A model generated the notes under the pieces. That model had not been told where the DNA came from. It worked only from the letters and a program-made list of their open reading frames with translations, and made no database searches. A program made the translations under genes and the position numbers. Below are positions 7,457-59,692 of a stretch of DNA of 64,000 nt, one piece after another. The DNA comes from Belliella baltica DSM 15883 (GTDB taxonomy: Bacteria > Bacteroidota > Bacteroidia > Cytophagales > Cyclobacteriaceae), in contig NC_018010.1 of the NCBI RefSeq assembly GCF_000265405.1, forward strand, positions 2,873,501-2,937,500, given 5' to 3'. Within the stretch, counting starts at the first letter, position 1. Each line of letters begins with the position of its first letter.

Positions 7457-8422
7457 TTAAAATGCGATACTCTTCAATTTTAAACCCAAGTTTTCATCCA
7501 ATCCAAAAGCGAGATTAAAGTTTTGAATGGCTTGCCCTGAAGCTCCTTTGAGTAGGTTGTCTATAGCAGAGTAAATTACCAATTGTCCTCGTTCTTTTTT
7601 GATATGGATAATGCATTTGTTAGTATTTACCACTTGCTTCAAATCAATGTCATTTCGCGAAATATGGGTAAATGGAGCGTCTTTATAGAAGGTTTCGAAC
7701 AATTGGTACGCTTCTTCAAGTTCTCCATCAAAAGGAAAGTAGGAAGTAATCCAAATACCTCTTGGGAAATTTCCTCTGTAGGGGATAAAGAGCAACTCTG
7801 AATTGAATTCAGGTTGAATTTGCAGGAAAGTTTGTTTGATTTCCTGAAGATGCTGATGGGTGAAAAGCTTGTAAACAGACATGTTGCTACTTCTATAGCT
7901 AAAATGTGAGGTTTCGGCTAATTTTTTCCCAGCTCCCGTGCTGCCTGTTATTCCAGAGATATGAACAGGATTTTTGATCCAATTTTTTGCAACAGCAGGA
8001 GCAAGGCCTAGTTGAATCGCGGTAGCAAAGCAGCCTGGATTGGCTATTTTCTTGGCTGATTTTATTTGTTCGCTGTTAATTTCTGGAAGTCCGTAAAGGA
8101 AACCATTGCTTTCATCTCTAAAATCTGTACTCAAATCAATGATTACAGTATCATCAGAAAATTTGTGTTTATCAAGAAAACCTTTGGTCTCTCCATGTGG
8201 CAAACCAAGAAATACGGCATCAATTCCATCTGTAGAAACTTGATCTGTAAATTTCAAATCTGTATCTCCAATCAAATCAGGATGTACTTCATTAACGCGT
8301 TTTCCTTTTTGACTATTGCTGTGAACATAAGACAAATTCACCATCGGATGATGAACCAAAAGTCTCAGTAATTCTCCACCTGTATAGCCCGCTGCACCGA
8401 TAATGGCTACATTAATTTTCAT
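7457..8422 (-). CDS. argC: N-acetyl-gamma-glutamyl-phosphate reductase
   Basis: A 321-residue NADPH-dependent reductase. The Rossmann loop is IIGAAGYTGGELLRLL at the N-terminus, the catalytic cysteine is in ANPGCFATAIQL near residue 133, and HxxE-like residues follow in THQHLQEI. Its first 11 bases overlap the end of argG, which indicates translational coupling in the same transcript. Third enzyme of the pathway. Confidence 0.94.
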   Translation of the reverse strand: MKINVAIIGAAGYTGGELLRLLVHHPMVNLSYVHSNSQKGKRVNEVHPDLIGDTDLKFTDQVSTDGIDAVFLGLPHGETKGFLDKHKFSDDTVIIDLSTDFRDESNGFLYGLPEINSEQIKSAKKIANPGCFATAIQLGLAPAVAKNWIKNPVHISGITGSTGAGKKLAETSHFSYRSSNMSVYKLFTHQHLQEIKQTFLQIQPEFNSELLFIPYRGNFPRGIWITSYFPFDGELEEAYQLFETFYKDAPFTHISRNDIDLKQVVNTNKCIIHIKKERGQLVIYSAIDNLLKGASGQAIQNFNLAFGLDENLGLKLKSIAF

Positions 8423-9611
8423 GATCTGGCTTGTTTACTTGATGGAAAATTGCGGTTTGGTTACCGAGAATCTTGGTGAATCCTTTGACATCTTGTGCTG
8501 TGTAACCTTTGTTCATCTCGCCATAACTGCCAAACTTGGATGCCATCAAATCGTGCTCAGACTCTATTCCTATCACTTGGAAACGGAAAGGATGCAGCAT
8601 TACTTTCACCTTTCCAGTGACAAATGTTTGTGTATCTGCTAAAAAAGCTTCTAAATTCCGCATCACAGGATCTAGATAATGTCCTTCGTGCAGGTGATTG
8701 CCATAGAATTCGGCTAGCTGATTTTTCCAGAAAGTCTGCCATTTGGTTAAAGTGTGTTTCTCAAGTAATTGGTGGGATTTGATAATAATCAAAGGTGCAG
8801 CAGCCTCAAATCCAACGCGACCTTTGATTCCAATTATCGTATCTCCCACATGAATATCTCTTCCAATTCCGAATGGAGCAGCCAATTCATTTACTTTCAA
8901 TATGGCTTCCACTGGATTATCAAATAGGGTGTCATTGACACCAATCAATTCACCTGTTTCAAAGATTAGACTTATTTCTTCGGCTTTCTCCTTAGTAACC
9001 TGAGTAGGCCAAGCTGAATCAGGAAGTGTTTGACTGGAAGTCAAGGTTTCCTTTCCTCCAACAGAGGTTCCCCAGATTCCTTTATTGATACTGTAGGCGG
9101 CTTTTTCGAAGTTCATCGAAATGCCATGTTTTTTGAGATAATCGATTTCGGCTTCTCTGCTCAACTGAAGGTCACGGATAGGAGTGATGATTTCGATGTC
9201 AGGAATGATCGTTTGAAAAATCATATCAAAACGAACTTGATCATTTCCTGCTCCTGTACTTCCATGTGCGACACATTTGGCACCTATTTTCTTAGCATAA
9301 TCTGCAAGCGTTTTGGCTTGTAATATTCTTTCAGCAGATACAGAAAGTGGATAAGTTTGATTTTTCAAAACATTGCCGAATACCAGGTATTTGATGACTT
9401 CTTGGTAGTAAGTTTTGGTTACATCAAGAATGGTAAATGATGAAATCCCAAGGCTATCTGCTCTTTTTTCGGTTTCCGATAGTTCTTCACTTGAAAAACC
9501 TCCTGTATTGATCAGTACTGCGTGGACTTCATATCCAAGGTCTTTGGTCAGGTGAAGTGCACAAAAAGTGGTGTCCAATCCTCCGCTGTATGCTAATACT
9601 ACTTTTTTCAT
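8412..9611 (-). CDS. argG: Argininosuccinate synthase
   Basis: A 399-residue ATP-dependent ligase joining citrulline and aspartate. It begins with the PP-loop KVVLAYSGGLDTT, and has AHGSTGAGNDQVRFD and the SVGGKETLTS segment. It overlaps argC by 11 bases and follows the GNAT gene after 33 bases. In this pathway free citrulline comes from the M20 deacylase of the same operon. Confidence 0.95.
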   Translation of the reverse strand: MKKVVLAYSGGLDTTFCALHLTKDLGYEVHAVLINTGGFSSEELSETEKRADSLGISSFTILDVTKTYYQEVIKYLVFGNVLKNQTYPLSVSAERILQAKTLADYAKKIGAKCVAHGSTGAGNDQVRFDMIFQTIIPDIEIITPIRDLQLSREAEIDYLKKHGISMNFEKAAYSINKGIWGTSVGGKETLTSSQTLPDSAWPTQVTKEKAEEISLIFETGELIGVNDTLFDNPVEAILKVNELAAPFGIGRDIHVGDTIIGIKGRVGFEAAAPLIIIKSHQLLEKHTLTKWQTFWKNQLAEFYGNHLHEGHYLDPVMRNLEAFLADTQTFVTGKVKVMLHPFRFQVIGIESEHDLMASKFGSYGEMNKGYTAQDVKGFTKILGNQTAIFHQVNKPDHEN

Positions 9612-21529: not shown

Positions 21530-21687
21530 TTAAATGGGTTATTGAAAAGTTTTATTTCCCCATCCGAAAATGACATATTTAGTTTTTTCATTAAATAAAA
21601 CTTGAGAGAGAAGACAAAATGAGTCATTTTTTTTTAATTACAATTATCATAAATTATATAGATAAGGTATAGAAATTAAGAAAATTT

Positions 21688-21723
21688 GTCCGTAATTTTG
21701 TCCGTGTACGTAAAATCGTCCGT
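21688..21723 (+). promoter_or_regulatory. Three GTCCGT repeats before the methyltransferase
   Basis: GTCCGT occurs at 21688-21693, 21700-21705 and 21718-21723, immediately before the ATG at 21728. Direct repeats next to an arm-type DNA-binding domain gene could be arm-type sites inherited from an integrase or an operator for the methyltransferase itself. Repeats are seen; the role is inferred. Confidence 0.5.
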
Positions 21724-21727
21724 ATTT

Positions 21728-23935
21728 ATGGCAACAATCAATTTTTATCTCGACAAATCAGACAAGAAAGGGCTTGCCCCTATTCATTTAAGGATTAACT
21801 GTTCTGGCACACAAATTAAGTTGGCGACAGGACAAAAGATTGACCCAGAGCTTTTTGACAAGAAAAGACAACGAGTTAAAGGGATTACAATTGAAGCGAC
21901 TGAGACAAATCACTATTTGAATTTTCTCAATGAACGTGCAGATGAATTATTACATCATTCTAACAAAAAAACGTTTTCACAAGATGAAATCAAAGATATT
22001 CTCAATCAACATATTGACGGGTACAGAGAAAATCATACTGTTAATATTGTAAAGGAACAGATTTCACTATATGGTAAGCCTTTTACTTTCATTGACTTGT
22101 TTGCAGGTGCAGGTGGTTTTAGTGAAGGCTTTTTACAAGCAGAAGTTAATAATAAATTCTTTGACTTCATTGCGGCAAGCGACATAAATGAAAATTGCGA
22201 ACTCACTCACATAGTAAGATATAATCATCAATTGGGGTTAAATGCGGAATTTTTAAAACAAGACATTACAGAACCTGATTTTTTAGACAACCTTTTACAA
22301 AAGATAGGTAACAAAAAAATTGATGTGGTTTGTGGTGGACCGCCTTGCCAAAGCTTCAGTCTGGCTGGAAAGAGAAAGAAGTTTGATAAAAAAGATGATT
22401 TATTTTCACACTACCTCGAAGTAATTAAAATATTGCAACCGAAGTATTTTGTAATGGAGAATGTAAAAGGGATTCTTACAAAAGAAAATGGGAAAATCAA
22501 AGATTTAATAATTCAAGAAATCAATTCAATAGTTGACAATAAAGAAATTCCAGTTTTAGTTTCATTTATCAGAAAAATGAAGTCTGATAAAAATAGTTTC
22601 TTGCTTGAAAGTATTATAAAACGAGTTGAAATTGAAAAATTAAGGGATGCTGAAATTGAAATAGGCAGAGAAGAATTTATTCGATTTGTAGATAATAGAT
22701 TCAAGCAACTTACACCTAAAATTGCTGATTATAAAACCAGCAAGACTGATTCAAGAATAAATACCATTAGACACGGTTTTAATATTCTTGCCCGAACCAA
22801 AGAATGGGAAAAACTGAAACGTGACATCATTAAAGAGAAAGACTTCTGCAATATTGATAGTGACGCATTTGTAGAAACATTCACGACTTTCTTAACCCAT
22901 ATCGGGTCTGAGAGTGTAATTGAACAAATTGAATTTGCATTTAAGGGACTCAAAGTTCCTTCCAACTATATAAAAGACTGTTCTGATATAATAACAGCAC
23001 TTAAAATTTACACGAATTCATTTGATGAAACCTTAGACATCCTATTAAACCTATGTTCTGAAAAGGAGAAATCTGAACTCAACAAAATTCTGGACAGCAT
23101 TAGGCTTTATAAAATCGAAAAACCACTTGTCGCAAACGCTTCAAATTATGGTGTTCCACAAAATCGTGAGCGTGTTCTTTTTATAGGTTGCAGAAAAGAC
23201 CAGAAATTTATTTCTGAAATCCCACCAACCGTAAAGGAAAATGAAAAAGTAACCATTTTTGAAGCTTTATACGACCTTGATTTTATAGGTAATAATCAAG
23301 AAGCTCACCACTATGAATTAGTAAATATTTCAAAACAATATAACGGAACAGCCGAAAAAATGAAAAGTCTCTTGAAAAAAAGGACTATTGACGGCAAGGA
23401 AAATTCTAAAACCGGAAAATCTTTTGCGGAATGGTCAAGAGGAGGTCGGTTAATTGAAAGGTATCAACCCAAAACTAAACCTTTCTATGTGAGAAATTTT
23501 GAAGGACTTCAAAAGGGAGAAAAATATTTTGACATTCTAAATAATCACAAAACAAGCAATCAAAATGATGACGTAATAAAACGGCTTGAAATTATTCTAA
23601 AAAATGGAGATTATAAAAAGGCTCAATGTGAAATAGATGATTGCGGTTTGACCTCAAATAAAAGAAATTACAATGTATTGAAACCAGATGAACAAAGTTC
23701 AACTATTATGACAATCCCAGATGATTATGTTCATTACAACTCACCAAGAGCTTTGACAGTTCGTGAAATGGCAAGGCTTCAATCATTTGATGATTCTTTT
23801 GTTTTTCAGGGAAAGCGTTCAACTGGTGGTAATAATAGAAAGACAGAAGTTCCGCAATACACTTTGGTTGGTAATGCCGTACCGCCATTATTGGCAAGAG
23901 CAATTGCCACTGAGATTTTAAAAAATATTAAATGA
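21728..23935 (+). CDS. DNA cytosine-5 methyltransferase with N-terminal integrase arm-type domain
   Basis: From ATG 21728 the protein has 735 residues. Residues 1-~95 (MATINFYLDKSDKKGLAPIH..., ATGQKIDPELFDKKRQRVKG, ETNHYLNFL) look like the arm-type DNA-binding domain of Bacteroidota tyrosine integrases. The catalytic part follows: motif I FIDLFAGAGGFSEGF (~120-135), motif IV GGPPCQSFS (catalytic Cys ~207), motif VI MENVKG, then an insertion of ~180 residues, motif VIII QNRERVLFIG (~478), a target-recognition region, and motifs IX/X (TVREMARLQSF, YTLVGNAVPP). No integrase catalytic residues exist, so this is a fusion, not a decayed integrase. It overlaps the endonuclease gene by four bases. 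Confidence 0.9.
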   Translation: MATINFYLDKSDKKGLAPIHLRINCSGTQIKLATGQKIDPELFDKKRQRVKGITIEATETNHYLNFLNERADELLHHSNKKTFSQDEIKDILNQHIDGYRENHTVNIVKEQISLYGKPFTFIDLFAGAGGFSEGFLQAEVNNKFFDFIAASDINENCELTHIVRYNHQLGLNAEFLKQDITEPDFLDNLLQKIGNKKIDVVCGGPPCQSFSLAGKRKKFDKKDDLFSHYLEVIKILQPKYFVMENVKGILTKENGKIKDLIIQEINSIVDNKEIPVLVSFIRKMKSDKNSFLLESIIKRVEIEKLRDAEIEIGREEFIRFVDNRFKQLTPKIADYKTSKTDSRINTIRHGFNILARTKEWEKLKRDIIKEKDFCNIDSDAFVETFTTFLTHIGSESVIEQIEFAFKGLKVPSNYIKDCSDIITALKIYTNSFDETLDILLNLCSEKEKSELNKILDSIRLYKIEKPLVANASNYGVPQNRERVLFIGCRKDQKFISEIPPTVKENEKVTIFEALYDLDFIGNNQEAHHYELVNISKQYNGTAEKMKSLLKKRTIDGKENSKTGKSFAEWSRGGRLIERYQPKTKPFYVRNFEGLQKGEKYFDILNNHKTSNQNDDVIKRLEIILKNGDYKKAQCEIDDCGLTSNKRNYNVLKPDEQSSTIMTIPDDYVHYNSPRALTVREMARLQSFDDSFVFQGKRSTGGNNRKTEVPQYTLVGNAVPPLLARAIATEILKNIK

Positions 23936-25110
23936 GAGTACTAACAGAAGCAGAACAGTTAAAAATTAAAATCCTGACCAAAAATCAGGTTTCTCTTTCT
24001 CTAATTGAGCCAACTGAAACTGGTTTAAAAAAATCAATTATGGATGCCACTGGCTCAGTTAGAAGTTTTCTAAAAGAAAATAGCATTCACGACTATGATA
24101 TTCAAGGGCAAGGTCAAGAAAACAAAGTTCAAATTGAAGCTCTTATTTATCAGGACTTTCAAGTAATCCATTCAACAGCTTCTTTATACAGACCACAAAC
24201 TAAAAAAGGAGACCCAAGAATTTGGTTTTCGGGACTAACAAAAATTGCTAATCCAAATGATATAATAGCAATTATATTTTTTGATGATTGTCTTCATATT
24301 TTCAATCTAACAAGGCTTAATATTGGTACTTTGATAGATTCTGCTTTAACCAATCCATTTAAAGAGTTAATATCTGCAATAAATTTTGAAGAAAGTGAAA
24401 TAGCAATTGAATTACTCAACAAGCTAAAACTAATTGCTAATTCAGGTTTTGTAAAATCAGTGGTTAATTCAGACACAGGAATTGGAAGAACGATCGAATT
24501 ATTACTTGGCATTGAGATGAATTCTTCAAAATCTCCAGATTATAAAGGCATTGAATTAAAATCATTTAGGGACTCTCGTAACAATAGAAAAGGACTTTTT
24601 GGAAAAACGCCAGATTGGAAACTCAGTAAATTTAAGTCCAGAGTTGAGATTTTAGATGCTTTCGGATATTGGGAAAAAGGTGTTTTTCGCCTATATAATA
24701 CCATAAGGGGAACTGGTAGAAATGCACAAGGTTTAATCTTAAAAATAGAAGATAAAAAGGATTGGTTAGTTGAAAATTCAGATAGACCAGAAATTGGGGA
24801 TTTTTTAGTTTGGAAATTAGAGACTTTGAGAAAAGAACTTTTGAAAAAACATAAAGAAACATTCTGGATTAAGGCAGACAGTAAAATTGAAGATAACAAC
24901 GAATATTTCCATTTTAAAGAAGTTGAGCACACTAAGAATCCAATGATTGATAAATTTGAGATTTTAGTTGAAACTGGTGCAATTACACTTGATTACCCAA
25001 TTAAAAGAATGCCAGACGGAAAAGTCATAGATAAGGGATGTAATTTTAAATTGAAAGCTAACTGTTTAGACCTTTTATTTCCACCGAGTGATATTTATAA
25101 TCTAACTTAG
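23932..25110 (+). CDS. Type II restriction endonuclease, MvaI/BcnI family
   Basis: A 392-residue protein coupled to the methyltransferase by ATGA. The nuclease core is visible at about residues 184-218: TGIGRTIELLLG, then SPDYKGIELKSFR, giving the Glu...Asp...Glu-x-Lys arrangement of the MvaI/BcnI family. MvaI cuts CCWGG and BcnI CCSGG as monomers; the site here is probably a CC-N-GG relative, but that is inference. Codon use is AT-rich like the methyltransferase. The pair sits between unrelated housekeeping genes, as expected of an acquired restriction-modification unit. Confidence 0.8.
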   Translation: MRVLTEAEQLKIKILTKNQVSLSLIEPTETGLKKSIMDATGSVRSFLKENSIHDYDIQGQGQENKVQIEALIYQDFQVIHSTASLYRPQTKKGDPRIWFSGLTKIANPNDIIAIIFFDDCLHIFNLTRLNIGTLIDSALTNPFKELISAINFEESEIAIELLNKLKLIANSGFVKSVVNSDTGIGRTIELLLGIEMNSSKSPDYKGIELKSFRDSRNNRKGLFGKTPDWKLSKFKSRVEILDAFGYWEKGVFRLYNTIRGTGRNAQGLILKIEDKKDWLVENSDRPEIGDFLVWKLETLRKELLKKHKETFWIKADSKIEDNNEYFHFKEVEHTKNPMIDKFEILVETGAITLDYPIKRMPDGKVIDKGCNFKLKANCLDLLFPPSDIYNLT

Positions 25111-30439: not shown

Positions 30440-32022
30440 GTAACTACTCAGGTTGTAAATTAGCTATATGATTTAGATTTTCTAAGATATTTCCCGAACG
30501 TTTGATCAGGGTATCCACGACGGATCTTATAACACAGAAGTTTTCAGCTCCATTGTTGGATTTGAACTGTCCTGATATTTTTTGTTTCACCTTGATGTTG
30601 CGTATGGCTCTTTCAGAGGCATTGTTATCCGGTGGTACTTTTTGGTGATAGAGAAAAGTAAAAAGTGACTTTCTGTATTTCAGGAGTCTTTTTTGTAGGG
30701 ATACTGCTTCTTTATGTTTTGACTCTACAGGTTGGGCGAGTAGGTTATCCATCTTCTCTTCAATGGAAGCAATACTCCTGCTATTCTCTGGATCTGGTAG
30801 TTTTTTGAGTTTTCTCTTCAGTGAGATAGCTTCCCTGAACAGGGCCCTAAGGCTGTCAGCCCATTTAGATTTATAGCGTTCAACAATGTAGTTGAGCTCC
30901 CTAAGCAGATGTGCACAACAGAGCTGGTGCAGGTTTTCCGAATAGTTGAAGTATGCCCTCCATGCATCGTGGCACAATACTGCCTTTCCGAACCCATCGG
31001 GAAAATGTGTATTCATCGCCTTAAGTCCACGTGATTCAGATATAGCTAACAGGGTGAGTTCCTCGGTCTGATAAGTCCAGACCCACTGTTTGTTTCCATC
31101 CACTTTAGCCCCAGTCTCGTCAGCTCCTATCACAGGACTTTTAGAGACTGCCGTCTTTATCTTTGCATATATTGGTGCAGACTTGCGGGCAAACCTACCG
31201 ATAATGTTATCGATACTCCCCTCGCTGAGATTAATACCGAAGCAGTCCCTGAGAAGTTCTTTCATCCTTCTATAGGGAACATACTGTCTGGCATGCAGAT
31301 AACCGACAATGGTTTCAACACCGCTCCCGTACTGTATGGGGGCATTGATATTGTCAGGGAATGACCCACTGATCTTTTCTCCACAGGAACAGTTTTTGGA
31401 AAAGATTCTATGCTCGGTACATACCACTTTAATCACAGGAAGATCCAGGACCTGTCTTTTGGAGGACAGTTCTGCTGGAACCGCCGACAGATCACCACCA
31501 CAGCAGGTACAGAATAAAGGGATGTGGTTTTCTATTATGTCCGGGGAGGATGTCATTTCAAGGGTATGGCCTTTGTGTCCAGGCTGACCGCCGGTTTTGC
31601 GCCCTGTATCCTGACGGAGACTCTGATTTTTTTTGGGGCGGTTCTCGTCTTTTGAAGGGGGAACCGAGCTGTTGCGGCTGTTTTTGGGATTACGGTAACG
31701 GGCAAGCTCATTTTCCAAATCGGATACCCTAGATTTTAAAGACTTGACCTGCTCCATAAGCTGGAGGTTCATCTTGATCAGTTCCTGAATAAGCGTATCC
31801 CTGTGGTCCAATATACTATAGAAATGTTTCCTGAATATCAGCACATAATCCCATGAATACCAATAATCCACGCTGTTTTTCCCCACAAAAAAATGTGGAT
31901 AAACCAACTTTAAAGCTGATTTTCGTACATTCACATACAAATACGCATCAATACACCACAGAGGGCAACAAGACTCCAAATACTTGAATATCGGTCAGTA
32001 AATAATGTACCTGAGTAGTTAC
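30440..32022 (-). mobile_element. IS66-family insertion sequence, single-ORF type
   Basis: A 1583-base element. Ends are 14-base perfect inverted repeats: GTAACTACTCAGGT at 30440-30453 and its complement at 32009-32022. It is flanked by an exact 8-base target duplication GAAAAAAC (30432-30439 and 32023-32030), the length expected for IS66. It encodes only the large transposase and no TnpA/TnpB, as in the ISBst12 subgroup. Clean ends, intact gene and perfect duplication indicate recent insertion. It sits in the divergent space between the methyltransferase gene and the gene at 32118. Confidence 0.95.
30444..31772 (-). CDS. IS66-family transposase (TnpC)
   Basis: About 442 residues from ATG 31772; the frame stays open further upstream to 31979, but the leucine-zipper start MNLQLMEQVKSLKSRV is the natural beginning. 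Then come a Ser/Pro-rich linker (NSSVPPSKDE), the IS66 zinc finger CTCCGGDL, and the DDE nuclease with VIGADETGAKVDG, VLCHDAWRAY and the final glutamate in PPDNNASERAIRNIK. The stop codon lies inside the left inverted repeat. Confidence 0.93.
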   Translation of the reverse strand: MNLQLMEQVKSLKSRVSDLENELARYRNPKNSRNSSVPPSKDENRPKKNQSLRQDTGRKTGGQPGHKGHTLEMTSSPDIIENHIPLFCTCCGGDLSAVPAELSSKRQVLDLPVIKVVCTEHRIFSKNCSCGEKISGSFPDNINAPIQYGSGVETIVGYLHARQYVPYRRMKELLRDCFGINLSEGSIDNIIGRFARKSAPIYAKIKTAVSKSPVIGADETGAKVDGNKQWVWTYQTEELTLLAISESRGLKAMNTHFPDGFGKAVLCHDAWRAYFNYSENLHQLCCAHLLRELNYIVERYKSKWADSLRALFREAISLKRKLKKLPDPENSRSIASIEEKMDNLLAQPVESKHKEAVSLQKRLLKYRKSLFTFLYHQKVPPDNNASERAIRNIKVKQKISGQFKSNNGAENFCVIRSVVDTLIKRSGNILENLNHIANLQPE

Positions 32023-33622: not shown

Positions 33623-33795
33623 TTTCTTTTCTTTCACTTCTTAACTCAATTTTATTGGTTTTGTTAAGAAATTTAAAAGGTATGATATTTTGTCTGATTA
33701 AATAAAACTTATATTTTATCTAAAAATTTGTATTTTTAAGCCTTTGAAATTTTAATATTTCACAAAAAACAGAAACTTATTCTTTGATAGACTTC

Positions 33796-34692
33796 ATGAT
33801 CCTTGTGACTATCAAAGGATTAAGAGAAACTGAAAATCAGCAAACTCAAAACACCTACTTGTACCAAGTGAAAGTAAAAGAACCTTTTATAGATGTTGAA
33901 AAAGTATTGAAGGATAAAAATCCAAAGCTTCATAGTTGGTTGCCTTCTTTTTTGATCAAGTATATCAAAAGAATTGTTCATGAAAATGACATCAATCATG
34001 TGATGGCTAAAAACGGTCATCTTCAAGGAATGGAATTTGTCAATGCTTTAATTGATGAATTTGGTGTAGAGGTTACTCTTACTGGAGCTGAAAATATTCC
34101 CTTGGACAGATCTGTGATTTTTGCTGCAAATCATCCATTAGGTGGAATGGATGGAATTGCATTCATGTATGCGCTTGGAAAATTTCGGACAGATATCAGG
34201 TTTTTGGTAACTGATATTTTGACCAATATTACCAATTTTGAACCAATGTTTATTCCAGTTAACAATCATGGAGCAAATAGCAGGGAATTGACAAAATTGA
34301 TAGACAGTGCCTACGCTAGTGAAAATGCAATCTTAGTATTTCCAGCAGGCTTGGTTTCTCGAAAACAAGATGTTGGGATTATGGATTTGGAATGGAAGAA
34401 AAGTTTCATCAGTAAATCAAAAAGGTATCAGAAAGATATTGTTCCTGTGTATATTGAAGGTAAGAATTCGATTTTCTTTTATAACTTAGCTAAGTTTAGA
34501 AAGATGTTGGGGATAAAGTCAAATATTGAGATGTTTTATTTAGCAGATGAGATGTTTTCCCAAAAAGGCAAAAAGGTAGTTATACATATAGGTAAGCCAA
34601 TTTCTTACAAACATTTTGATAAATCAAAAAGCGAAAAAGATTGGGCAGAAGAAGTGAAGCAAATGGTTTATCAAATGGCCAAAAAAGATTAA
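33796..34692 (+). CDS. Lysophospholipid acyltransferase-like protein (GlsA/OlsA-like)
   Basis: About 298 residues from ATG 33796; a TTG at 33784 is an alternative. A PlsC-type domain begins VTLTGAENIPLDRSVIFAANHPLGGMDG. The acyltransferase histidine and aspartate are there but five residues apart (H-x5-D) instead of the usual H-x4-D. Next come FVPVNNHG-like and VFPAGLVSRK segments. It is three bases from the GNAT-type N-acyltransferase gene. The same pair order is known for glycine-lipid synthesis (GlsB/GlsA of Bacteroides), in which this one adds the O-acyl chain. Confidence 0.75.
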   Translation: MILVTIKGLRETENQQTQNTYLYQVKVKEPFIDVEKVLKDKNPKLHSWLPSFLIKYIKRIVHENDINHVMAKNGHLQGMEFVNALIDEFGVEVTLTGAENIPLDRSVIFAANHPLGGMDGIAFMYALGKFRTDIRFLVTDILTNITNFEPMFIPVNNHGANSRELTKLIDSAYASENAILVFPAGLVSRKQDVGIMDLEWKKSFISKSKRYQKDIVPVYIEGKNSIFFYNLAKFRKMLGIKSNIEMFYLADEMFSQKGKKVVIHIGKPISYKHFDKSKSEKDWAEEVKQMVYQMAKKD

Positions 34693-34695
34693 TTT

Positions 34696-35649
34696 ATGCA
34701 AGAAATTATACCAGCTGTAGATAAGGAATTGTTAAAAAAGGAATTGATACCTGAGCGATTTTTAAGATATACTAATAATGGCAATAATCATATATATTTA
34801 ATTGATTACCATAACTCTCCAAATGTTGTAAGAGAAATAGGAAGATTAAGGGAATTGACTTTTAGAGGTGCTGGAGGAGGTACAGGTCAGCCTTTGGACA
34901 TTGATGAAAATGATACCTGTGAAAATTGCTATCAGCAGTTGATCACTTGGAATCCTGAGGATGAAGAAATCGTTGCCGGCTACAGATTGATTGATTGTAA
35001 AAATGCTCAAATAGATAAAAAAGGTGAATTAAATTTATCTACTTCACATTTATTTAAGTTTTCTGAGAAATTTATCAAAGAATATATTCCCCATACGATT
35101 GAACTAGGTCGTTCTTTTGTTCAACCAAAATACCAACCAAGCATTGATAATAGAAAAGGCTTATTTTCCTTGGATAATCTGTGGGATGGTTTGGGAGCGG
35201 TTGTAATGCTTCATCCAGAAGTTAAATATCTTTTTGGAAAAGTGACGATGTATCCCCATTACAATCGAGAGGCAAGAGATTTATTGCTCTATTTTATGAA
35301 TCATTATTTTCCGGATAAGGAAAATTTGGTAAGCCCGCTTGACAACTTAAGGTTGACATATGAAACAGATATGACAGAGGTAAGAGATACTTTTAAAGAT
35401 TTAGAGTATAAAGAAGGATATAAATTGCTTAACTCCCGTATCCGGGCAGCAAAGGAAAATATACCTCCTTTGATCAATACTTACATGAATCTTTCTCCGA
35501 CTATGAAAACTTTTGGAACTGCACTCAATGATGAATTTGGTGCTGTTGAAGAAACGGGGATTCTTATTACCATTGCAGATATTTACGAAAGTAAAAAACA
35601 TAGACACATGGAGACTTTTATCAGAGATCAGGTCTTTGGGAGTAGATAG
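34696..35649 (+). CDS. GNAT-type N-acyltransferase for amino-lipid synthesis (GlsB/OlsB-like)
   Basis: A 317-residue protein of the hemolysin-like/OlsB acyltransferase family: EIGRLRELTFRGAGGGTGQ, then EEIVAGYRLI, then TIELGRSFVQPKYQP and LWDGLGAVVMLHPEVKYLFGKVTM, features of the acyl-ACP-dependent N-acyltransferases that start ornithine or glycine lipid synthesis. It follows the O-acyltransferase gene by three bases. Together the two would make a diacylated amino-acid lipid for the membranes; which amino acid is not determined. Confidence 0.75.
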   Translation: MQEIIPAVDKELLKKELIPERFLRYTNNGNNHIYLIDYHNSPNVVREIGRLRELTFRGAGGGTGQPLDIDENDTCENCYQQLITWNPEDEEIVAGYRLIDCKNAQIDKKGELNLSTSHLFKFSEKFIKEYIPHTIELGRSFVQPKYQPSIDNRKGLFSLDNLWDGLGAVVMLHPEVKYLFGKVTMYPHYNREARDLLLYFMNHYFPDKENLVSPLDNLRLTYETDMTEVRDTFKDLEYKEGYKLLNSRIRAAKENIPPLINTYMNLSPTMKTFGTALNDEFGAVEETGILITIADIYESKKHRHMETFIRDQVFGSR

Positions 35650-35658
35650 AAGAATGAA

Positions 35659-36024
35659 ATGAAGAATACAGTCATCATAGGAGCTACTACAAATACCTCT
35701 AGGTATGCATACATAGCTGCAGAAATGCTTTTTGAAAATAAAATTCCATTTACACCTGTTGGAATCAAGAAAGGGTCTGTTTTTGGTAAGGAAATCTTAG
35801 ACCTGAATGACAAGCCAATTATAGATGATGTCGATACGATTACATTATACATCGGACCAAGGCATCAGCCTGAATGGTATGACTACCTTATTTCCCTCAA
35901 GCCCAAAAGAATTATTTTTAATCCAGGGACAGAAAATATAGATTTGGCTAAATTAGCTCAAGAAAACAATATTGAAACTGTAAATGCTTGTACTTTGGTC
36001 ATGATCAGTACAAAGCAGTATTAA
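35659..36024 (+). CDS. CoA-binding domain protein
   Basis: A 121-residue single Rossmann-like CoA_binding_2 domain: TVIIGATTNTSRYAYIAAEML, FTPVGIKKGSVFGKEI, IIFNPGTEN. It begins 9 bases after the N-acyltransferase and ends overlapping the blh remnant on the other strand by four bases. Function in the family is unclear; it may bind acyl-CoA or NAD-like ligands. Confidence 0.85.
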   Translation: MKNTVIIGATTNTSRYAYIAAEMLFENKIPFTPVGIKKGSVFGKEILDLNDKPIIDDVDTITLYIGPRHQPEWYDYLISLKPKRIIFNPGTENIDLAKLAQENNIETVNACTLVMISTKQY

Positions 36025-36797
36025 GATTCTCTTTTTTCTAAAAAATTATTCATCACCCAAATATGTGGTGCTGAAATCAAACTCACCAAGATGAAAAATA
36101 GAAGAATCATTTGTTCTTCGTTGAGATAGCTAGTTGCTAGGAATAAAATAAGACCAATTCCTATAAAACTAATAATACTGAAAGGTGCTAATTGAACAAT
36201 AAACTTTTTGATTTTCCCATGTTGGATATTCGCTGTCAAGGAGTCGAATTCGGCCATCATACTCGGTAAAGCATGCCAAAATCCGAAATAAAGAATAAAA
36301 GCCATGAGCACAGGTAGGAGGTAAAGTAAAAAACTAAGGACGATAATCTCTGCTAGCAGCAAGTGAATTTTATTTAAATTTTGAATAGAAACTACAATAA
36401 GACTTGATATGAATAGAGAAATCATGGTTATTGAACCATAGTCAATGAATGGTGTGATGTCAACTATAGATTCTAAAATGGTCGCTGTAGCTATATAATC
36501 GCTGAAAAGAATCACTCCTAAAAAATTACAACCCACAATGAAGTAGGTGAGTCGTTTGTATTTGACAATTTTTAAATGAATAAAATGCCCTTGACCAAAG
36601 TGATAAGCAGAAATCAATAAAAATATTGCTAAAGAGACCGCGGGAAAAATCATCCATAGAATAAAATACGCGCCTATGATCCCTAAGTATTTGATTATAA
36701 ATATGCTTAATCCACTGATCCTCTTTCTACAAAGAAGAAAACTGCGGACGCAAACATAGCCATATACCCAATGAAAAAGGTAATGGCAACTGGGTCG
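36021..36797 (-). pseudogene. blh: Truncated blh (beta-carotene 15,15'-dioxygenase, Brp/Blh family)
   Basis: The frame is open from after a TAG at 36798-36800 to 36021; its first ATG is at 36653 (210 residues). Blh hallmarks are present: LISAYHFGQGHF, LYFGFWHALPSMM and SAPHIWVMNNF, with several membrane helices and metal-ligand histidines. Full Blh proteins are about 280-300 residues and begin with a PHG-x-x-D-type segment carrying essential histidine and aspartate; that part is absent. In-frame Blh-like sequence continues upstream of the ATG (IKYLGIIGAYFILW), so this is a deletion, not a natural start. The enzyme would normally make retinal for rhodopsins. Confidence 0.75.
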
Positions 36798-36850
36798 CTA
36801 TTAATAACGCGCTCCAATCCGATTAATTCTGCTGTAATAATGGTGTTCAT
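36707..36850 (-). pseudogene. N-terminal remnant of a proteorhodopsin/xanthorhodopsin gene
   Basis: Forty-seven codons from ATG 36850 to TAA 36707. The product contains DPVAITFFIGYMAMFASA followed by VFFFVERGSVD, which matches the start of helix A of bacterial light-driven pumps (DPV-x-ITF ... FFF-x-ER). Right after GSVD, where rhodopsins continue with GKWK and six more helices, the sequence switches to blh in another frame. The remaining ~190 residues, including the proton acceptor/donor positions and the retinal lysine, are missing. The two genes were evidently adjacent on this strand and fused by a deletion. Confidence 0.72.
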
Positions 36851-39187
<2,337 letters not shown>

Positions 39188-57910: not shown

Positions 57911-59692
57911 GAGGCTGTCCAAAAAGTAAGGACAGCCTTTTTTTTGCTGTTTTTAATCTAAAATATTATCTTAGAGTTGCATAAAAAACAAGCAATGGCT
58001 AAAGTAATATTTAAATCGCAATCGATCAATACTCCGGAACTTTTTCCGATAAATATTTTTGACAAAATCCCAGAAAACCATCCTGTTCGCTTAGTAGATC
58101 AAGTTGTCAATTCATTGGATATCAATACCATTCTTAAGAAATATAAAGGAGGTGGCACCTCGGCTTACCATCCCAGAATGATGCTTAAGGTTTTGTTTTA
58201 CAGTTATTTGAGCAACACTTATTCTTGTCGAAAAATAGCAAAAGCACTCACCGAGAACATTCATTTTATGTTTATTTCAGGCAACTCAACCCCTGATTTT
58301 AGAACTATCAACGATTTTAGAGGAAAGATTTTAAAAGAGAACATCAAAGATTTATTTGCCGAGGTAGTCAAAATGCTTGTGGAAATGAAATACATAAGTC
58401 TTGATATTCAGTATATCGATGGAACAAAGATAGAAGCCAAATCCAATAAATATACCTTTGTTTGGCGCGGTTCTATAGAGAAATACAAAGAAAAACTCGA
58501 AGTAAAAATCAATAGTATTTTATCCGATATCGAAAATAGTATAGCATCAGATAACCAAGAAATTAACAAAGAAGAATTGCCAAAAAAAATAAACTCGGAA
58601 GAGTTAAAAGAGAAATTGGCTGAGCTAAATAAAAAACTCAAAGAGCCAAACAAAAAAACAGCCAAAGAGCTTCAAAAACTTCAAGAGGAACATCTGCCAA
58701 AACTCGAAAAATACGAAAAAGATTTAGTGGTTTTAGGCAATAGAAACTCCTATAGCAAGACTGATCCTGACGCTACCTTTATGAGAATGAAGGAAGACCA
58801 TATGAAAAACGGACAGTTAAAACCTGCATACAACCCTCAGATATCCACAGAGAATCAATTCATTACAAACGTAACCATCCATCAAACACCTAACGACACT
58901 ACGACTTTAAAATCCCATCTGGAGGAATTTGAAAAAAGGTATCAAAAACAAAGCAAAACAGTGGTGGCCGATGCTGGTTATGGAAGTGAAGAAAACTACG
59001 AAATGCTCGAAAATAAAGAAATAACAGCCTATGTAAAGTATAATTATTTTCACAAAGAGCAGAAGAAAAAAATGAAGGGCAACCCGTTTCTTGTCCAGAA
59101 TTTGTTCTACAATATACAACAGGATTTTTATGTGTGTCCAATGGGACAAAGAATGGAGAACATTGGAAGTGGAAAACGGACATCGGCCAATGGATACGAA
59201 TCGCAAGTGTTTTATTATCAAGTAAGAAGATGTAGTGGATGCCCACTTAGAAGTTTATGCCATCAAGCCAAAGGAAACAGAACAATAGAAGTAAACCACC
59301 GACTGAACCAATTAAGAGCCAAAGCAAAAGAGCTCCTTAACAGTGAAAAAGGACTCGAGCATCGCAGTAAACGCCCAATAGAAGTTGAAGCCGTCTTTGG
59401 ACAGCTAAAAAGCAACAATAAATTTAATCGATTTACCTTTAAAGGATTAGATAAAGTAGAAATGGAGTTTCTATTGATGGCTATTGGACACAATTTTAGA
59501 AAAATGGTGGCAAATAACAATAAAAAGCACAAGACCCATATAAAATTTTCTGTGCGAGTTCGAAATAGACTTACAGAAGTCGAAATTTACCTTTTTAAAA
59601 CCGAAACAGAATATTTTTTCATAAATCAACCAACGAAAAATCAATCCCTAAAATTTGCTGCATAAAAAAGGCTGCCCTTTTCGGACAGCCTC
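57911..59692 (+). mobile_element. IS1182-family insertion sequence
   Basis: A 1782-base element. Left end GAGGCTGTCCAAAAAG and right end CTTTTCGGACAGCCTC are inverted repeats with one mismatch. Each end also has its own internal inverted repeat (GGCTGTCC ... GGACAGCC, then a T run on the left; GGCTGCCC ... GGACAGCC on the right), so both ends can work as terminators. The left one, at 57913-57945, is the only terminator after the VOC gene. No convincing target duplication is visible in the A/T-rich flanks. Confidence 0.9.
57995..59665 (+). CDS. IS1182-family transposase
   Basis: About 556 residues from ATG 57995. N-terminal ELFPINIFDKIPENHPVRLVDQ, the catalytic Asp in QYIDGTKIEA, Asp in VVADAGYGSEENY and Glu in IEVEAVFGQLKSNNKFNRF, which mark the IS1182 branch of DDE transposases. 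A lysine/glutamate-rich insertion (residues ~180-255) is a coiled coil. A cysteine cluster (CPMGQ, RRCSGCPLRSLC) binds zinc. Intact and probably active. Confidence 0.92.
   Translation: MAKVIFKSQSINTPELFPINIFDKIPENHPVRLVDQVVNSLDINTILKKYKGGGTSAYHPRMMLKVLFYSYLSNTYSCRKIAKALTENIHFMFISGNSTPDFRTINDFRGKILKENIKDLFAEVVKMLVEMKYISLDIQYIDGTKIEAKSNKYTFVWRGSIEKYKEKLEVKINSILSDIENSIASDNQEINKEELPKKINSEELKEKLAELNKKLKEPNKKTAKELQKLQEEHLPKLEKYEKDLVVLGNRNSYSKTDPDATFMRMKEDHMKNGQLKPAYNPQISTENQFITNVTIHQTPNDTTTLKSHLEEFEKRYQKQSKTVVADAGYGSEENYEMLENKEITAYVKYNYFHKEQKKKMKGNPFLVQNLFYNIQQDFYVCPMGQRMENIGSGKRTSANGYESQVFYYQVRRCSGCPLRSLCHQAKGNRTIEVNHRLNQLRAKAKELLNSEKGLEHRSKRPIEVEAVFGQLKSNNKFNRFTFKGLDKVEMEFLLMAIGHNFRKMVANNNKKHKTHIKFSVRVRNRLTEVEIYLFKTETEYFFINQPTKNQSLKFAA

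Follow-up and report, generated by a model that had tools for sequence, protein, structure and literature searches.

The described system closest to the locus treated here comes from Polaribacter, in the study of Kumagai et al. 2018. In Polaribacter, a member of the class Flavobacteriia, the joint loss of proteorhodopsin and blh from a fixed and conserved chromosomal neighbourhood was inferred from synteny, with the genes being absent at that site, and the neighbouring gene codes for an L-serine dehydratase (PMC5932025). A figure legend of that paper mentions lost genes, while the term pseudogene is absent from its main text. For rhodopsin losers, a solar-panel or parasol idea was also put forward there, which involves genes for flexirubin or aryl polyene (PMC5932025).

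The scar identified in Belliella baltica DSM 15883 is the same kind of event as this known joint loss of rhodopsin and blh, located in another class, with a third gene included and caught half-way. Unlike in Polaribacter (PMC5932025), both end fragments remain at the site, and a lycopene cyclase gene has been lost as well. No published report of the Belliella scar was found in a search by title and the start of the abstract, with subscription papers lying outside this search. The analysed stretch of DNA, here called the window, consists of 64,000 nt of NC_018010.1 (positions 2,873,501-2,937,500) with a G+C content of 36.0%, and a value of 36.8% is given for the B. baltica type strain in PMC5167729. 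Judged from the comparison with related genomes, the region is almost certainly the scar of one recent deletion in an ancestral phototrophy cassette.

The junction and the intact locus of Belliella aquatica

On the minus strand of the window, codons 1-47 of a proteorhodopsin gene, comprising the N-terminus and helix A (36850-36710), are fused directly to codon 62 of a Brp/Blh gene (36710-36021). The rhodopsin remnant is 94.3% identical on the nucleotide level to the rhodopsin gene of Belliella aquatica, and its 47 amino acids show no difference (100% identity) from positions 1-47 of the intact 249-residue protein. The dinucleotide AT at positions 36710-36711 fits both sides of the junction, forming a microhomology of 2 bp. 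A two-sided alignment revealed that the TAA stop at 36707-36709, which closes the 47-codon frame (36707-36850 including the stop), was created by the fusion from bases of the blh side. The blh remnant (36021-36710) comprises codons 62-290 and the stop, is open in frame and has lost the original start; it shares 93.2% nucleotide identity with positions 7982-8670 of the B. aquatica locus L029. Within it, the mechanical ORF list contains an ORF of 210 amino acids (36021-36653), starting at the first in-frame ATG at residue 81. The existence of both frames, as stated in the original prediction, was confirmed from the ORFs, the profile matches and the alignment to relatives.

Both neighbours were assigned by Pfam and are located on the plus strand. 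To the left, gyrB (37226-39187) is divergent from the cassette, and to the right, a gene for a CoA-binding protein (CoA_binding_2, 35659-36024) is convergent, its 3' end overlapping the blh stop. Further to the right, a GlsB-type glycine N-acyltransferase gene (34696-35649; 509 bits, cut-off 300) adjoins an acyltransferase-like gene (33784-34692), and the two are likely to form a glycine-lipid pair. By reading translations, two transposase-like frames were identified at 30444-31979 and 57977-59665, neither of them at the scar. By the same means, a gene resembling DNA cytosine methyltransferases was noted at 21686-25110, where it precedes one that probably codes for a restriction endonuclease.

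For B. aquatica CGMCC 1.12479, the closest available relative and the reference for the deletion, locus L029 contains at the same chromosomal site, between gyrB and the CoA-binding gene, intact genes for rhodopsin (249 amino acids), lycopene cyclase (393 amino acids) and Blh (290 amino acids). The site and the genes are those of the scar, with the difference that in B. aquatica all three genes are open. The window aligns to L029 in two blocks, with window 41467-36710 corresponding to L029 1229-5985 (85.9% identity) and window 36711-33001 to L029 7980-11687 (84.3% identity). The blocks meet at the scar and are collinear over 8.5 kb of the window, interrupted by a single large gap of 1,996 bp; all other indels span a few bases each. 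The block without a counterpart in the window, L029 5986-7981, includes the 3'-terminal 609 bp of the rhodopsin gene (L029 5845-6594), a spacer of 35 bp, the entire cyclase gene (L029 6630-7811) and the remainder of blh codons 1-61. The blh start of the 290-residue form (L029 7798) overlaps the end of the cyclase gene.

The B. aquatica rhodopsin contains the seven-helix Bac_rhodopsin domain (PF01036, 145.8 bits), and its best solved relatives are proteorhodopsins. The stretch RYVDWTLTVPLMCVEF in helix C, which is wholly deleted in the window, aligns without gaps to two solved proteorhodopsin chains. The residues D, T and E within RYVDWTLTVPLMCVEF form the proton-pump motif. The cassette cyclase of B. 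aquatica matches PF05834 with 163 bits (cut-off 23.4) and stays far under the NCBIfam CrtY cut-offs.

A single deletion had been predicted to join the rhodopsin start to a truncated blh gene, and this was borne out by the one gap against the intact locus. Its predicted size of about 0.8 kb was 2.5-fold too small, and rhodopsin and blh are not direct neighbours as had been assumed, since the lycopene cyclase gene lies between them in all 28 mapped family loci with a full rhodopsin and was deleted as well. The remnants have undamaged orthologues at the corresponding site of close relatives, as expected of pseudogenes formed by deletion. Such a join would arise in exactly the same form if 2 kb of an intact cassette had been dropped during sequencing or assembly. 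This explanation is very improbable. The genome, the only one of its species in the comparison, is a single contig of 4,196,595 bp with a completeness of 99.98%, searches of the rest of the assembly did not recover the deleted genes, and the two sides of the join have only 2 bp in common, which makes a repeat collapse an unlikely cause; no single-base error, moreover, bridges 1,996 missing bp. Plasmid records searched at the DNA level gave no match.

The deletion, with 2 bp shared by both ends, was probably one illegitimate event of the microhomology or replication-slippage type. It struck an arrangement that is old in the family, in which the genes for rhodopsin, lycopene cyclase and Blh follow one another between gyrB and the CoA-binding gene, and it eliminated the final 81% of rhodopsin, the complete cyclase gene and blh codons 1-61.

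The rhodopsin and blh remnants

The leftovers are predicted to be hardly able to yield a seven-helix pump, because rhodopsin ends after helix A, or a working dioxygenase, because Blh is devoid of its start and of the PHGxxDH segment. The rhodopsin remnant lacks everything past residue 47, and by itself does not make up a seven-helix protein. On its own, it reached no Pfam or NCBIfam model at cut-off. Since the 47-codon frame has kept its start, it might be regarded as a genuine small gene, the more so as seven other short relatives of 31-74 amino acids were found, one of 49 amino acids with two members on a contig of 8,091 bases. However, the same residues form the N-terminus of full-length rhodopsins in relatives, eight of which, in addition to B. 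aquatica, are 81-87% identical over all 47 positions. Four of the seven short relatives were inspected, of which two continue past the stop residue of the window and two end earlier, and the source record of a fifth describes it as a partial sensory rhodopsin, so that these sequences look like cut or broken rhodopsins. A small gene in its own right is thus hardly conceivable, and the frame is best described as the start of a lost rhodopsin gene.

The Blh frame was identified by two profiles, TIGR03753 (109.8 bits, cut-off 95.25), where the match begins at profile position 54, as in a truncated member, and PF15461 (103.5 bits, cut-off 28), where it also begins inside the profile. The readable part begins with residue 62 of 290, which means that 21% of the protein is missing, or 28% when counted from the first ATG at residue 81, upstream of which no in-frame ATG, GTG or TTG is present. 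The first third of Blh had been predicted to be absent, which overstated the loss. An alignment of 115 Blh sequences was made, taken from the best 120 of 148 matches (114 with at least 280 amino acids besides the one of the window) with B. aquatica Blh added. In this alignment, an identity of 98% or more is reached by five histidine columns, namely H45, H50, H98, H207 and H277. The last three are retained in the window, while H45 (115/115) and H50 (114/115) fall in the deleted part, which carries the PHGxxDH segment with these two near-invariant histidines. Because not every near-invariant histidine is present, the frame is classed by its sequence as a blh remnant rather than a functional Blh.

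Some observations would also suit a shortened enzyme of 210 amino acids, still working or re-purposed and expressed from the internal ATG. The 210 codons from this ATG are still open, three of the five near-invariant histidines are kept, and dN/dS against B. aquatica is about 0.11, a low ratio of replacement to silent changes that would be expected of a product under continuing selection. The constraint may, however, wholly predate the deletion, and the frame no longer has its original start or two of the near-invariant histidines. Among 245 genomes of the family searched at E of at most 0.001, a rhodopsin match was found in 85 and a blh match in 81, with both in 80, which gives no sign of a use of blh without rhodopsin; the genome of the window is the only one with blh alone. 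A surviving enzyme is highly unlikely on this evidence, and an inactive blh remnant is the preferred reading. Rhodopsin without a blh match was found in five genomes (G071, G109, G126, G142 and G238), of which G142 and G238 are under the rhodopsin cut-off.

Silent divergence and the age of the deletion

Compared with B. aquatica, the blh remnant shows 32.5 silent and 14.5 replacement differences over 228 codons (dS 0.25, dN 0.028). For the rhodopsin remnant, 8 silent and 0 replacement differences were counted over 47 codons. The blh remnant contains no stop and no frameshift. Of its 12 amino acid differences from B. aquatica, 6 are placed on the B. baltica branch, 3 on the other and 3 on either, numbers too small to reveal a relaxation of selection after the deletion. 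The lack of new stops and the few amino acid changes in the remnants make the deletion look young relative to the split from B. aquatica, as had been predicted. A rough age bound, which supposes that half of the silent changes fall on each branch, is in agreement: an unconstrained gene would be expected to gain about 56 replacements on the B. baltica branch, so that 6 to 9 replacements confine the unconstrained part to 12-24% of this branch or less (95% upper limits).

The silent divergence of the remnants from B. aquatica is far lower than that of their surroundings, with 40.5 differences at 185 silent sites against 766.5 at 1,351.5 in five flanking genes, namely ppk, gyrB, the CoA-binding gene, glsB and the acyltransferase-like gene (Fisher p 7e-20). 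A sixth, more distant gene, named a short-chain dehydrogenase by reading (67.6/176.8), was left out; when it is included, the flanks amount to 834/1,528 (p 6e-18). At the end of blh, identity with B. aquatica drops from 0.94 to 0.75. The low divergence of the remnants would be accounted for if the two lineages had exchanged the cassette before the deletion occurred.

Low silent divergence of blh was also identified in the other two Belliella sister pairs, with 0.18 against 0.41 for gyrB in G002-G005 and 0.18 against 1.26 in G003-G007, and is therefore common to all three pairs in the genus that bear blh or its remnant. In other genera, it was found for G150-G179 and G025-G165; the loci concerned are L029-L036, L148-L167 and window 36021-36710. 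Usable values for both gyrB and blh were obtained for 16 pairs within genera, and in five of them, three from Belliella, blh lies below half of the gyrB value. Of the 13 usable pairs from genera g85 and g88, 11 stay at or above this level. For these counts, pairs with gyrB values above 1.7 were dropped, G002-G007 and G148-G197 are saturated in blh, and the g19 pairs lack gyrB. One of the three g19 pairs, G025-G165, has a blh value of 0.19 against 1.20 for rhodopsin.

The low divergence of the remnants was considered as a demonstration that the cassette was imported from the B. aquatica lineage. This was rejected, since blh is low in two other Belliella pairs too, so that a general cause is conceivable, and import is kept as a side reading. 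Either recombination around blh is frequent in Belliella, or another cause holds the silent sites of blh. More speculatively, phototrophy might be an exchangeable allele, with the cassette being deleted repeatedly and its retinal part being swapped, again repeatedly, from one sister species to another, the retained flanks serving as the sites of homologous recombination. The low blh divergence in three Belliella pairs and two others would be the trace of this process, by which species would flip between phototrophic and non-phototrophic states; we regard this as possible and rather unlikely.

The cassette in the family and the genes that remain

In the family Cyclobacteriaceae, 31 loci were mapped, 11 from the initial set and 20 chosen non-randomly from rhodopsin-bearing genomes of seven genera. 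The order rhodopsin, lycopene cyclase, blh was found in 28 of the 28 loci with a full rhodopsin, and gyrB and the CoA-binding gene flank the cassette in 25 of these, covering 7 of 8 genera. In the three g19 loci, the cassette order is the same and neither flank lies within the fetched stretch. The agreement of 25 of the 28 loci in both gene order and flanks indicates that the cassette is ancestral in the family where it was mapped.

Within Belliella, rhodopsin and blh were identified in five of the seven congeners searched, and neither gene in G004 and G006. In these two, the CoA-binding gene and gyrB are separated by 218 and 227 bp, and no remnant was found between them. In a tree of five flanking proteins from 19 genomes, B. 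baltica groups with B. aquatica and G004 with G006, the latter pair standing beside G003 and G007 with 90% support. This placement points to two independent losses of the cassette in the genus. The two congeners thus share with B. baltica the site and the three missing genes, and differ in that their loss is clean and an independent event. Decay of rhodopsin within the same family was also observed in two species of genus g13, G019 (L111 5844-6236) and G161 (C1:2478999-2479713). Their blh matches are likewise only short, but rhodopsin is present in two or three nearby pieces there, with no single large deletion, and the blh piece is located far away in the genome.

The pump and retinal genes had been predicted to be lost from the genome of B. 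baltica, and searches of the whole genome agree. No second rhodopsin was found over the cut-off (two matches, the best with 13.8 bits against 24.6), and the remnant is the sole blh match, with no full blh elsewhere. An RPE65-type dioxygenase was not found, while 2 of 14 control genomes gave matches; the heliorhodopsin search was blank for this genome, as it was for all 14 controls, so that this blank is no sign of absence. With the PF05834 model, no full cassette-type cyclase was identified, the two partial matches (25.6 bits over 144 of 380 positions and 24.6 bits over 39 of 380, cut-off 23.4) being comparable to short matches in 10 of the 14 control genomes. Full cyclase matches, scoring 134.8-190 bits, were obtained from all seven congeners; five have one at the cassette, and G003-G007 have one at a second site. 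This second-site cyclase (L043-L047) is the sole copy in G004 and G006 and is absent from B. baltica, B. aquatica and G002. A CarR-type cyclase is present in B. baltica, B. aquatica, G002 and G005.

B. baltica has retained crtI-crtB, and a CarR-type lycopene cyclase of 235 amino acids (99.9 bits, cut-off 39.4) adjoins crtB. The same cluster codes for a CrtW-like protein (226.6 bits, below the cut-off of 350), a CruF-like protein (97.5 bits, below 154.7) and a CarH-like MerR/B12-binding regulator (L108 12054-12956; 95.2 bits, below 400), which is perhaps a light-sensing switch that has outlasted the loss of rhodopsin. With crtI-crtB and another type of cyclase remaining, carotenoids are still plausible, and a carotenoid pigment is likely to be retained in B. 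baltica.

From its gene content, the B. baltica cell is predicted to be non-phototrophic and incapable of retinal synthesis. The cyclase of the cassette can go while the separate carotenoid gene cluster persists. At this locus the event itself is readable, as one deletion with its ends, its content and a rough maximum age, and an intact sister species and a second, cleaner and independent loss in the same genus stand beside the scar. B. baltica DSM 15883 and B. aquatica form a natural pair in which to examine under what conditions retaining a light-driven pump pays off.
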